Source: Phycisphaerae bacterium
GTDB lineage: Bacteria > Planctomycetota > Phycisphaerae > UBA1845 > UTPLA1
DNA length: 64,000 nt
Assembly (NCBI GenBank): GCA_035275405.1
Contig: DATEMU010000007.1
Span: 186,001 to 250,000 of the forward strand
Reading direction: 5' to 3'
Part shown: positions 38,559 through 41,733 of the stretch, in pieces
Layout of the letters: the number at the start of each line of letters is the position of its first letter
How positions within the stretch are numbered: the stretch's first letter is position 1
The notes under the pieces: model-generated
What the model saw: the letters and a program-made list of their open reading frames with translations, nothing else
Databases searched by the model: none
Told to the model about the DNA's origin: nothing
Made by a program: the position numbers and the translations under genes

Positions 38559-38587
38559 GCACATCCGGTACTGGTACAGTTTGAAAT
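38559..38587 (+). repeat. Left end of transposon: target duplication and terminal inverted repeat
   Basis: The target duplication GCACATCC is at 38559-38566. The terminal inverted repeat GGTACTGGTACAGTTT (38567-38582) continues GAAAT with one mismatch to the right end. Confidence 0.9.
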
Positions 38588-38607
38588 CCTAGCCGCTCCG
38601 GGGCGTG

Positions 38608-38616
38608 TGGTATAAT
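38608..38616 (+). promoter_or_regulatory. Extended -10 promoter, leaderless arrangement
   Basis: TGGTATAAT ends 6 nt before ATG 38623, so transcription should begin at the A of the start codon. Confidence 0.6.
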
Positions 38617-38622
38617 GGGGGC

Positions 38623-38877
38623 ATGGCGAAGAAAAAGACCCGTCGCGATACGGCCCAGATCGCCCGCGAGAACCTCGAACACATCATCGGCGAGAAGCTG
38701 ACGGGCGAGCCGTTAGACAAGCCGGAGCCGGACAAGCCTGATACGCGGAATCAGGCTGCGGTGGCGCTTAGCAAGCTGGGCGCGAGCAAGGGCGGCAAGG
38801 CGAGGGCGGAGAAGCTCACCGCGAAGAAACGCAAGGAAATTGCGAAAAAGGCCGCTGCCGCTAGGTGGAAACAGTAA
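38623..38877 (+). CDS. Transposon passenger: small basic protein with KGG-type motif
   Basis: This 84-residue, Lys/Arg-rich protein has a helical N-terminal part (TAQIARENLEHIIGEKL). The C-terminal block ASKGGKARAEKLTAKKRKE followed by IAKKAAAARW is of a kind seen at the end of many small bacterial proteins of unknown function. It may bind nucleic acid, judging by charge only. There is no ribosome-binding site; the -10 box 6 nt upstream implies a leaderless mRNA. Its 3' end overlaps the 3' end of the opposing 185-aa gene by 17 nt. Confidence 0.65.
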   Translation: MAKKKTRRDTAQIARENLEHIIGEKLTGEPLDKPEPDKPDTRNQAAVALSKLGASKGGKARAEKLTAKKRKEIAKKAAAARWKQ

Positions 38878-39418
38878 CCCCCATTCCATCATCGTCATCA
38901 TCGGCGTCGTCGTATTCGTCCTCCTCATCGCCAGGATAAACCGTCGGATGTTCCATTTCGGCCAGGTCTTCGTCGAAATTGAAACTCATGTCGATATGTG
39001 CGCCGTACTTGTTATTATCGTTGAACGACGAGATGTCGGTGTTAAGTTGCGATACGTCGCCGAGCGCCATCCGCCTTCGCGCTTGTGCAGACTTGTGCAT
39101 CTGTTGCTCGTCCGCGTTGATGATATCAAACCAAAGCCATCGATACTGGCCGCCTTGATCTATGAACGTGAAACAGTGCTTCTTGCGGACATCGCGCCCT
39201 TGGGGGTCAACGTAAAATTCTTGTCGAGCCGCGCGGGAGAGTTCGCGCGCGCAAAGTGTGGTCGGACTAATACGGGGCGGCTTCCATCTTCCATTCTTAA
39301 TCCGCCAATCTGCGACTTTCATCATGTCAACAACTTCTTCGCCGGTTTCGGCCATGTAGTCGTTGATGTCCCGCTGGGCCTGCTCCAACTTGGCTGATGT
39401 CCTACGTTTCGCTGCCAT
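38861..39418 (-). CDS. Transposon passenger: 185-aa protein with acidic tail, unknown function
   Basis: The N-terminal part is helical and mixed-charge (SAKLEQAQRDINDYMAETGEEVVDMMKVADWRIKNGRW). The centre has an aromatic patch (KKHCFTFIDQGGQYRWLWFDIINADEQQ). The last 30 residues are extremely acidic (DEEDEYDDADDDDDG). It starts 12 nt after the XRE-ImmA stop on the same strand, so the two probably share an mRNA. Position next to an XRE-ImmA protein could suit a partner, substrate or toxin, but no motif supports a choice. Not recognised. Confidence 0.7.
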   Translation of the reverse strand: MAAKRRTSAKLEQAQRDINDYMAETGEEVVDMMKVADWRIKNGRWKPPRISPTTLCARELSRAARQEFYVDPQGRDVRKKHCFTFIDQGGQYRWLWFDIINADEQQMHKSAQARRRMALGDVSQLNTDISSFNDNNKYGAHIDMSFNFDEDLAEMEHPTVYPGDEEDEYDDADDDDDGMGVTVST

Positions 39419-39430
39419 ACTAAAACCTCG

Positions 39431-40543
39431 CTATCCGATTGTATTTCCCCAGCCATCTACTACGGAAGTAGAAATAACGCGCTGGCGGATTTTTGCCAAC
39501 ATTTCACGGTTCGCGCTCCAGCGAATCTTTCGGCGATGCTGCAACTGGCCGACGACGATTCCAGGATGAACCTTGTTTCGGTGTGCAAATTGGATAATGC
39601 GCTCCTTGGAGTAAAAAGGGGCGATGCGCCGTATGAACGAGTCAATCGAGTCCGGGGGTATGAGCGAGGCGGCTGATTCGGAATCGGCCCGTTGCTCAAA
39701 CGACGGCTTAGATTCTGTCGGTATGGCGTCCTCGCCGGTTAGGCGAGAATCAATCGAAAGACCGTCCTTGTGCCGAATGTGGGACCACTCGTGAAACAGG
39801 GTAAACCATAATGAATCGATGCGATCGCGCCGCAGGGAGAGAGCAATCACAGGCTTCTTGTCGTCCAACCAGAGTGCGGCTCCGTCGATTTTCGATTCAC
39901 TTAGCGGCTCGATCACTACAAACCTTACCCCGAATGTAGCCAACAGCCGTGATATCTGAGCGGCTTCAGGTGCGTGGGCCAGTAATCCCTTTAGTTTTTC
40001 TTCGCACTCGTCAACACGACGATCATCAAAAGGGGGGGCAAGTAAATCAGCCGCCAGGTTCCGCGCTCGAAAACACCATGCACGTTGCTGCGACGACAGC
40101 GGCGATTCTTCGGCCGCCTGTCTTCGTGTTGCCACCGACAGGATTGGATCGTGTTCCAAAGACACGACGCGGAAAAACGCTTTCAATTCGGCCTCGACGC
40201 CAGCTAAATCCGCCGCTGGCTTTATCCATCCCCGGCGCACCATTTCTCTAACCGGCGCGATGTGATACAGGCGAGCGCGCCGCCTCGCTTCCTCCAATTC
40301 TTCTTCTGTTACTCGCGTCCCCGCATCTAGAACCAGCCAGTACCCGGCGCTGGTGTTGAACGCTGCCGAGAAGAGCGCGGCCATCTCAGGACTTACAGAT
40401 CGTTTGCCTTGGATGATCTCATTCACTGCCGCCGTGGTCTTTCCGATCACTTGGGCAAGGTCGGCCTGTGTCCAGCCGCGACGGCCCAAGCAGTCTCTCA
40501 GGGCATCCCCTACGGTTCGATGTTCCGACTGGTTTTCGCTCAT
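39431..40543 (-). CDS. Transposon passenger: XRE/HigA-type HTH fused to ImmA/IrrE metallopeptidase
   Basis: Residues about 8-75 of this 370-residue protein form an XRE/HigA-like helix-turn-helix (GWTQADLAQVIGKTTAAVNEIIQGKRSVS). The second half has the ImmA/IrrE zinc-protease motif HEWSH in LWFTLFHEWSHIRHK (about residue 250). In mobile elements such as ICEBs1, ImmA cleaves the separate repressor ImmR to allow transfer. Here repressor and protease are in one chain. It is divergent from the transposase gene with a shared symmetric control region. Autorepression and damage- or signal-induced relief are inferred. No ribosome-binding site; a -10-like CAGAAT ends 6 nt before ATG 40543. Confidence 0.88.
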   Translation of the reverse strand: MSENQSEHRTVGDALRDCLGRRGWTQADLAQVIGKTTAAVNEIIQGKRSVSPEMAALFSAAFNTSAGYWLVLDAGTRVTEEELEEARRRARLYHIAPVREMVRRGWIKPAADLAGVEAELKAFFRVVSLEHDPILSVATRRQAAEESPLSSQQRAWCFRARNLAADLLAPPFDDRRVDECEEKLKGLLAHAPEAAQISRLLATFGVRFVVIEPLSESKIDGAALWLDDKKPVIALSLRRDRIDSLWFTLFHEWSHIRHKDGLSIDSRLTGEDAIPTESKPSFEQRADSESAASLIPPDSIDSFIRRIAPFYSKERIIQFAHRNKVHPGIVVGQLQHRRKIRWSANREMLAKIRQRVISTSVVDGWGNTIG

Positions 40544-40549
40544 GGGGCT

Positions 40550-40639
40550 ATTCTGGGCTTGCCAACCACGTTTTGTCAAGTTATCGTTTTACGAAATTCG
40601 ATAATTTCACTTGACAATGCCTTGTCGAGCAAGTATATT
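40550..40639. promoter_or_regulatory. Divergent promoters within a symmetric operator
   Basis: The inverted repeat TTGTCAAG (40573-40580) / CTTGACAA (40610-40617) encloses TTATCG (40581-40586) / CGATAA (40599-40604). The left arm is the -35 of the minus promoter (TTGACA 40579-40574, N18, CAGAAT). The right arm is the -35 of the plus promoter (TTGACA 40611-40616, N17, TATATT 40634-40639). One dimeric repressor could silence both genes. Confidence 0.75.
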
Positions 40640-40647
40640 TGTACAGT

Positions 40648-41472
40648 ATGAACAAGCTACCTACAGCCAAGCGTGTCGCGGTCGTTTCGGCCCTGGTTGA
40701 GGGCATGAGCATCAATTCGATAGTCCGCATGACGGGCGTATCGAAGGTGACGATCCTCAAGCTCCTGAAAGACTTGGGCTGCGCGTGCGCCCGATACCAC
40801 GATGACCACGTTCGCGGCCTCAAGCCCGCCCGTGTCCAGTGCGATGAGGTTTGGAGCTTCAATTTCTGCAAGGCTAAGAACGTCGCCAAAACGAAGCTAC
40901 GCGATATCAGCTACGGCGACGTGTGGACGTGGACCGCTCTCGACAGCGATTCCAAGATGATCGTCACGTACTACGTCGGGCAGCGCAGCGCGGCCGATGC
41001 GGATATCTTCATGCTGGACCTTGCCAGCCGCGTGAACAGCCACACCCAGCTAACGACCGATGGCTTTCCGGCCTACCCCGAGGCGGTCAAAAACGCTTTC
41101 GGGTCGATGGTCGATTACGCGCAGCTAATCAAGGTGTACAAAGAGGATCGCTCGCGCGAAGCCCACTACAGCCCGGCCACGTGCATCGGATGCAAGCATG
41201 AAACCCTGATCGGCTACCCCGACCCGGCCCATATCTCGACCAGCCACGTTGAACGGTCGAACCTCACGATACGGATGTCGATGCGCCGGTTCACGCGGCT
41301 GACGAACGGTCACTCCAAGAAAATCGAAAACCACGGCCACTCTTTCAGCCTTTTCGTCATGCACTACAATTGGTGTCGCAAGCACATGACCCTCAAGGGT
41401 AAGACGCCCGCTCAGGCTTGCGGGCTGGCCGATAAGCCGTGGACGCTCGAACAATTGGTAGGGCTGATCTAG
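40648..41472 (+). CDS. IS1-like DDE transposase
   Basis: The 274-residue protein has an N-terminal helix-turn-helix (SINSIVRMTGVSKVTILKLLKDLG). A DDE catalytic core follows, with Asp in QCDEVWSF (about 65), Asp in TTDGFPAY (about 137) and Glu in SHVERSN (about 201). The end HYNWCRKHMTLKGKTPAQACGL is typical of IS1-related single-frame transposases. Unlike IS1 of enterobacteria, no programmed frameshift is needed. ATG 40648 lies 8 nt after the -10 box TATATT, so the mRNA has almost no leader. All three catalytic residues are present, so the enzyme may be active. Confidence 0.88.
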   Translation: MNKLPTAKRVAVVSALVEGMSINSIVRMTGVSKVTILKLLKDLGCACARYHDDHVRGLKPARVQCDEVWSFNFCKAKNVAKTKLRDISYGDVWTWTALDSDSKMIVTYYVGQRSAADADIFMLDLASRVNSHTQLTTDGFPAYPEAVKNAFGSMVDYAQLIKVYKEDRSREAHYSPATCIGCKHETLIGYPDPAHISTSHVERSNLTIRMSMRRFTRLTNGHSKKIENHGHSFSLFVMHYNWCRKHMTLKGKTPAQACGLADKPWTLEQLVGLI

Positions 41473-41485
41473 GAGGCGAAAATCA

Positions 41486-41710
41486 ATGCAATCCCCTAAT
41501 TGGAAAGTCGGAGATATGGCATGGTGCGATGATGATGATGGCCGCGACGAAGTAGTAATCGAAGGTGAGACGCCAGGCGGCTTTGAGTCAAACAAAGACG
41601 GCTGGGGCTCTAATCCATCGCCGTGTACATATTTGGTGAGGGTTGTCTATGGACCCCGAAAGAACGAGATTAAGACCGTTCAAAAAACACAGCTTTCACC
41701 TATTATTTGA
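41486..41710 (+). CDS. Small ORF at the right end of the transposon
   Basis: The 74-residue reading frame has a strong ribosome-binding site AGGAGG (41471-41476) overlapping the transposase stop and 9 nt before ATG. Translation is therefore coupled to the transposase. The stop TGA (41708-41710) touches the right terminal repeat. Sequence features: KVGDMAWCDDDDGRDEVVIEGETPGG and TYLVRVVYGP, a small beta-rich fold by appearance. No family recognised. Confidence 0.6.
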   Translation: MQSPNWKVGDMAWCDDDDGRDEVVIEGETPGGFESNKDGWGSNPSPCTYLVRVVYGPRKNEIKTVQKTQLSPII

Positions 41711-41733
41711 AACTGTACCAGTACCGCACATCC
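41705..41733 (-). repeat. Right end of transposon: terminal inverted repeat and target duplication
   Basis: AAACTGTACCAGTACC (41710-41725) is the exact inverse of the left end; the inner CAAAT differs from the left GAAAT at one base. The target duplication GCACATCC follows at 41726-41733. Confidence 0.9.

Follow-up and report, generated by a model that had tools for sequence, protein, structure and literature searches.

PD-lambda-2 is an anti-phage toxin-antitoxin (TA) system composed of a HigB-like protein, a HigA-peptidase protein and the product of a third gene (Vassallo et al. 2022, PMC9519451), in which protein B is toxic alone and is rescued by A (PMC9519451). ImmA-domain antitoxins have also been described elsewhere (PMC10440598). 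TA modules are carried by Tn3-family transposons, for which a coupling to transposition has been suggested (Lima-Mendez et al. 2020, PMC7157771). Control of a mobile element by an XRE repressor together with an ImmA-type peptidase is known from ImmR/ImmA of ICEBs1 and from TnSmu1 (PMC10233336), and repressor-protease pairs are found in CapH/CapP and IrrE(PprI)/DdrO.

The locus analyzed herein lies in a 64,000-nucleotide stretch of a Phycisphaerae bacterium genome (contig DATEMU010000007.1, positions 186,001 to 250,000), hereafter referred to as the window. Like PD-lambda-2, it encodes an XRE/HigA-type helix-turn-helix (HTH) fused to an ImmA-type peptidase, and the order HigB, XRE-ImmA, third gene was found in related loci, including 12 IS elements. 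It differs from PD-lambda-2 in that the window element is devoid of HigB and rides an IS1-family transposon, and in that a defence role is, for this element, a putative one. As in the Tn3 family, TA-type genes are located inside a transposon beside the transposition genes, and a regulatory coupling is proposed; in Tn3, however, it is the res site that contains the shared promoters, with the resolvase as regulator, whereas the window element has an IS1-type transposase, no resolvase, and a shared site predicted to be the antitoxin's own operator. The likeness to ICEBs1 and TnSmu1 is one of analogy, since two separate proteins act there, whereas the window encodes a single fused HigA-type protein with putative cleavage. 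Likewise, the modeled peptidase domain matched those of CapP and IrrE, but repressor and protease are separate in these systems and joined in one chain in the window. In the open papers on IS1-family elements with passenger genes, a scope outside which most subscription papers fall, nothing on such an arrangement was found, and the IS1-family version of a TA-bearing transposon appears to be new.

The transposon and its cargo

The spacer with divergent promoters singled out in the first-pass annotation was enclosed by a transposon of 3,159 bp (38567-41725), the features of which are as follows.

38559-38566: left target-site duplication, GCACATCC, exactly identical over 8 bp to 41726-41733
38567-38587, + strand: left terminal inverted repeat (TIR), GGTACTGGTACAGTTTGAAAT, 20/21 match to the right end; both ends were found in the genome
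38623-38877, + strand: basic protein with KGG/KARA motif, 84 aa, convergent with the cargo operon
38861-39418, - strand: protein C, 185 aa, partner gene downstream of XRE-ImmA
39431-40543, - strand: XRE-ImmA, a fusion of a HigA-like HTH and an ImmA/IrrE peptidase
40648-41472, + strand: IS1-family DDE transposase, 274 aa, matching DDE_Tnp_IS1 and NF033558
41486-41710, + strand: ORF of 74 aa with no assigned function
41705-41725, - strand: right TIR, 21 bp, 20/21 match to the left end
41726-41733: right target-site duplication, GCACATCC, identical to the left copy

The transposase matched DDE_Tnp_IS1 above the family cut-off (3.7e-7) and NF033558 (IS1) at 4e-18, yet below the curated cut-off of the latter. 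The element combines an IS1-type DDE transposase, TIRs and a target duplication in the 8-9-bp range, as is characteristic of the IS1 family, and TIRs with an 8-9-bp duplication were confirmed in the relatives L057, L059, L127, L075, L089, L103 and L126. The same genome harbored a second IS1-type element (L022; G000 C3, at ~175 kb) whose transposase is 64% identical, whose ends are related and which has an 8-bp target duplication of its own, GATCCGCA, as read from the printed ends. Its cargo is different, being a protein of 358 aa in which a KGG-like N-terminus and, as judged by eye, a possible NYN-type nuclease were noted. Searches of Pfam and NCBIfam gave no match for the 84-aa KGG/KARA protein of the window (38623-38877), homologues of which sit at the same end of many elements. 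The motif KGGKARAxxLxxxxRxxIAxKAAxxRW marks a small basic protein accompanying this IS1 group (L006-L009, L022 and L024), and the KGG-motif protein was present in 48 of the 80 transposase loci on viral contigs.

Antitoxins of the RmrA type are fused XRE-ImmA proteins. In the window protein, an HTH_3 domain (3.9e-10) and a weak Peptidase_M78 match were detected, with Zn ligands at H251, H255 and E283, and the peptidase residues H251, E252, H255 and E283 (HExxH...E) were invariant in 44 homologues. The best system model was PD-Lambda-2_B of PADLOC (E=3e-41), and TIGR02607 was matched at 1.4e-9, below its cut-off. The top matches of the modeled N-terminus were structures of HigA and of HigA-DNA complexes, and the modeled C-terminus matched CapP (7t5t) and IrrE (3dti). 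By its HTH fold, which is that of HigA, and by the palindromic operator predicted within the promoter of its own gene, the protein belongs with the HigA family. Its one-chain architecture, which the first-pass annotation contrasted with ImmR/ImmA of ICEBs1, is already that of the B protein of PD-lambda-2 (PMC9519451) and of the RmrA antitoxin type; by analogy with PD-lambda-2, XRE-ImmA may do more than regulate.

Protein C was conserved in 60 genome loci, where it is encoded immediately after XRE-ImmA. Its AF2 model (pLDDT 88) found no fold match in the PDB or among viral models, and this conserved third gene did not match PADLOC PD-Lambda-2_C; nor did the HigB and C proteins of the relatives match the PD-Lambda-2_A and _C models. 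Since the A and C models were left unmatched, we refer to the module as PD-lambda-2-like rather than PD-lambda-2. HigB was absent from the window element, both from the 104-nt spacer and among its ORFs, and the transposase occupies that side; the element accordingly has neither component A of PD-lambda-2 (a HigB-like toxin upstream) nor, unless protein C is itself a toxin, the cognate toxin that stands beside the antitoxin in a type II TA module. Among the loci compared, in a sample drawn by similarity to the window protein and counted without regard to descent, HigB was absent in 15 of 27 IS loci (remnants counted) versus 7 of 69 others. The HigB-less IS modules include L031, L104, L127 and the clade around the window, and HigB was apparently lost more than once.

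The spacer between the facing promoters

The features of the intergenic region and its edges are listed below.

40550-40555, - strand: CAGAAT, the -10 box for XRE-ImmA, followed after 6 nt by the start codon
40574-40579, - strand: TTGACA, the -35 box for XRE-ImmA (left arm), conserved in L052
40581-40604: predicted XRE-ImmA operator, TTATCGTTTTACGAAATTCGATAA, a 24-mer with 9/12 pairs, nested between the -35 boxes
40588-40604: predicted operator core of 17 bp, TTTACGAAATTCGATAA, centre 40596, the 17-mer and its spacing being as in non-IS loci
40611-40616, + strand: TTGACA, the -35 box for the transposase (right arm), at a position shared by IS1 relatives
40617-40636: further palindrome, ATGCCTTGTCGAGCAAGTAT, a degenerate one within the transposase promoter, with the family consensus ATGCTTGAgcggTCAAGCAT
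40634-40639, + strand: TATATT, the -10 box for the transposase, followed after 8 nt by the start codon
40641-40652, + strand: GTACAGTATGAA, lying across the transposase start and similar to the TIR of the element itself (GTACAGTTTGAA)

In good agreement with the first-pass annotation, each arm of an inverted repeat was revealed to hold the -35 hexamer of one of the two divergent promoters (TTGACA at 40611-40616 on the + strand and at 40579-40574 on the - strand), and the nested half-sites TTATCG (40581-40586) and CGATAA (40599-40604) were present. Its geometry required correction: the quoted 8-nt arms, given as 30 nt apart, are in fact separated by 29 nt, and the perfect arms are 9 nt long, TTGTCAAGT (40573-40581) and ACTTGACAA (40609-40617), and stand 27 nt apart. 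As the outer arms are centred on 40595 and the inner 24-mer on 40592.5, the two repeats are not concentric, and hence the description of the spacer as one symmetric region is not literally right. A single concentric 45-nt palindrome was also considered and rejected, just 12 of 22 positions being paired. The -35 and -10 boxes are separated by 17 nt in the transposase promoter (11/12 consensus matches) and by 18 nt in the XRE-ImmA promoter (10/12). Start codons lie 6-8 nt past the -10 box at both promoters (40543-40555 and 40634-40648) and in many relatives, and the transcripts of both genes therefore look leaderless; on the transposase side, this spacing was kept in most relatives.

An inverted repeat of at least 9 bp arose in the spacer with p=0.011, and a 24-mer palindrome with 9/12 pairs with p=0.026 (1,000 dinucleotide shuffles). 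Of the nine bases in an arm, six belong to the facing TTGACA boxes, and two such boxes form an inverted repeat by definition. The chance statistics of the repeats are modest alone, and it is the comparative evidence that carries the case. The arms as such were rejected as the operator: they consist mainly of the two -35 boxes, and the right TTGACA is lost in L052, where it reads TTGCGT.

The predicted operator core is located ~17 nt from the XRE-ImmA -35 and ~15 nt from that of the transposase; this 17-mer (40588-40604) was picked by comparison with L052 and L069, the top-ranked centre of the script being a different one. In L052, the closest relative, the XRE protein of which is 52% identical, 30 of 32 nt were identical over the cargo -35 and the operator, the kept sequence being TGTCAAGTTATCGTTTTA(T)CGAAATTyGATAA. 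A related site, TTATCGctattCGATAA, was found in L069, a Sumerlaeota locus with a similar recognition helix and no transposon. Over 94 loci, the similarity of operators tracked that of recognition helices once whole-protein identity was allowed for (partial Mantel r=0.35, 0/2000 permutations), as it did within the non-IS loci (r=0.38, 0/2000) and the IS loci (r=0.22, 2/2000). Of 34 non-IS higB-higA-immA loci, 27 had a palindrome of ~17 bp with its centre 15-18 nt upstream of the -35, against a null of 12%; in nearly all of them the distance was 16-17 nt. Eight of the 25 unique HigB-type upstream regions from viral contigs could be scored, and six had the centre at 15-17 nt, five of these six sharing one palindrome as near-copies. 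No second good site was found in a search of the 5.3-Mb genome for a wider operator regulon.

From the transposase side, 13 of the 25 elements with cargo had GTCAA, the reverse of TTGAC, at a distance of 31-42 nt from the -35 of the transposase, as compared with an expectation of 0.28 by mononucleotide shuffling and 0/12 in cargo-free controls. Conservation of the spacer among related elements, on which the first-pass annotation had beforehand let its reading stand or fall, was thus observed, both in the 30/32 nt kept in L052 and in these GTCAA boxes. Its proposal of an HTH-protein operator between the facing promoters was likewise supported by conservation and helix tracking, although the predicted site is the nested palindrome and not the -35 arms. 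These comparisons support the assignment of the nested palindrome as the putative operator of the HigA-like XRE-ImmA protein.

The distances between the two -35 boxes, as annotated by hand in elements having a clear -35, were 30-34 or 39-43 nt, with one of 51 nt, and avoided 35-38 nt (n=15, p=0.015). In the short class, a midway palindrome was placeable at distances of 32-34 nt in the window, L052, L057, L063, L075 and L109, as the second-ranked centre in L063, L075 and L109. About half of the elements have the longer spacing and a less symmetric operator, and several individual palindromes were not significant on their own. Strict 10.5-bp phasing of the two promoters was weakly supported and was not retained.

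Two further features are found on the transposase side. The ATGCTTGAgcggTCAAGCAT palindrome lies between the transposase -35 and -10 with or without XRE cargo, and was also seen in L006, L008, L009, L011, L024 and L141, the transposase or the KGG protein being candidate binders; since it is common to elements of both kinds, the XRE site would be an addition to an existing control. The element's own TIR matched its own transposase start better than did the TIRs of other elements (p=0.0025), hinting that the transposase may bind its own start region. This TIR-like start region was observed to vary with the TIR in the window (40641-40652 and 38567-38587), L052, L089, L098 and L103.

Recurrence of the layout among relatives

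A genome scan together with class and phylum searches yielded about 100 XRE-ImmA loci; the genome-contig scan with the window protein as the single query gave no match. At ~24 distinct genome loci, an IS1-type transposase was placed head to head with the cargo operon, with HigB first or absent. Apparent remnants were found at L055, L062 and L135, where XRE-ImmA and traces of the transposase promoter were accompanied by a broken or lost transposase. On viral contigs, 8 of 80 transposases had XRE-ImmA cargo, all on the opposite strand; seven of these eight elements had a short spacer, and L297 contained 2.5 kb of intervening sequence.

The IS-bearing loci were dispersed over the XRE tree, with label changes numbering at least 8 and 9, and did not follow the transposase tree. 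Lasting co-evolution of transposase and XRE was not supported, given a mirror-tree r of 0.055 that was equaled or exceeded in 1649 of 5000 permutations; the cargo was exchanged. The scattered tree and the uncorrelated distances indicate that the layout was assembled, or its cargo swapped, many times. Cargo-free relatives had working-looking transposase promoters without the XRE operator, and XRE control is thus best regarded as an add-on.

A candidate control mechanism and its alternatives

We consider it rather likely that the shared spacer is governed as a whole by the HigA-like HTH, which would act on both the cargo and the transposase promoters from one operator. Shared control as anatomy is well supported by the sequence comparisons, in which the element boundaries, the operator, its predicted binder, the spacing and the recurrence all lend support; repression of both promoters, relief by the ImmA domain and an effect on transposition are its putative functional side. 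In the proposed mechanism, the HTH would bind the 17-bp operator at a distance of 16-17 nt on the upstream side of its own -35, which is also the arrangement in higB-higA-immA-C operons outside transposons. With the transposase promoter pointing away from the other side of this operator at a nearly equal distance, one bound dimer would touch both promoters and cover each -35 box at its upstream edge. The most likely effect, judging from HigA, would be that XRE-ImmA represses its own operon and the transposase. If the HTH were then lost or cleaved, both promoters would be released; the ImmA domain is a plausible route to such relief, perhaps acting in response to phage or stress.

An operator serving the XRE-ImmA operon alone, with the nearby transposase -35 reflecting compactness and having no regulatory effect on transposition, is a possible account that we regard as somewhat unlikely. 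It is in keeping with the non-IS loci, where the same operator serves the higB-higA operon only, with the cargo-free IS relatives that do without it, and with several of the 39-43-nt elements, in which the operator is nearer to the cargo -35 (17 and 26 nt in L107); however, such simple autoregulation does not account well for the head-to-head layout recurring in many XRE lineages, for the avoided -35 spacings, or for the midway palindrome placeable in six genome elements.

Activation, in which XRE-ImmA at about -52 would contact RNA polymerase at one or both promoters and its loss would silence the element, appears quite improbable to us. The operator centre lies ~52 nt before the expected transcription start, a fixed position that could also suit activation, and the very narrow range of distances between operator and -35 across many phyla (the 27 of 34 at 15-18 nt) and, weakly, the spacing classes 8-10 nt apart, which hint at helix phasing, point in the same direction. 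HigA-type antitoxins, however, are known autorepressors, and both -35 boxes of the window are near-perfect TTGACA, so that an activator should be needless. That the arms are just two facing -35 boxes around an accidental inner palindrome is scarcely credible and largely refuted, for although TTGACA makes up most of each arm, the single-locus p values are modest and the two repeats are off-centre from each other, the conservation in L052, the recognition-helix tracking, the fixed spacing and the single genomic occurrence argue against chance.

Returning to control of both promoters by XRE-ImmA, a more far-reaching form of it, which we hold to be unlikely, is that IS1-family transposons repeatedly took over an anti-phage antitoxin-protease, often toxin-less, as a transposition switch, a phage or stress signal acting via ImmA and protein C to remove the repressor and switch on transposase and defence together. 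If true, this would couple host immunity to mobility. The present findings suggest that compact insertion sequences, in addition to Tn3-type transposons, carry antitoxin-type modules wired to the transposase promoter, and such IS-borne modules span many phyla and viral contigs. They provide a concrete prediction, namely a single operator whose half-sites are known and whose distance from each of two promoters has been measured, and supply an operator code for the HigA-ImmA (PD-lambda-2-like) proteins, a large family of which the toxin-less versions would make a natural set for asking what the antitoxin-protease does alone.
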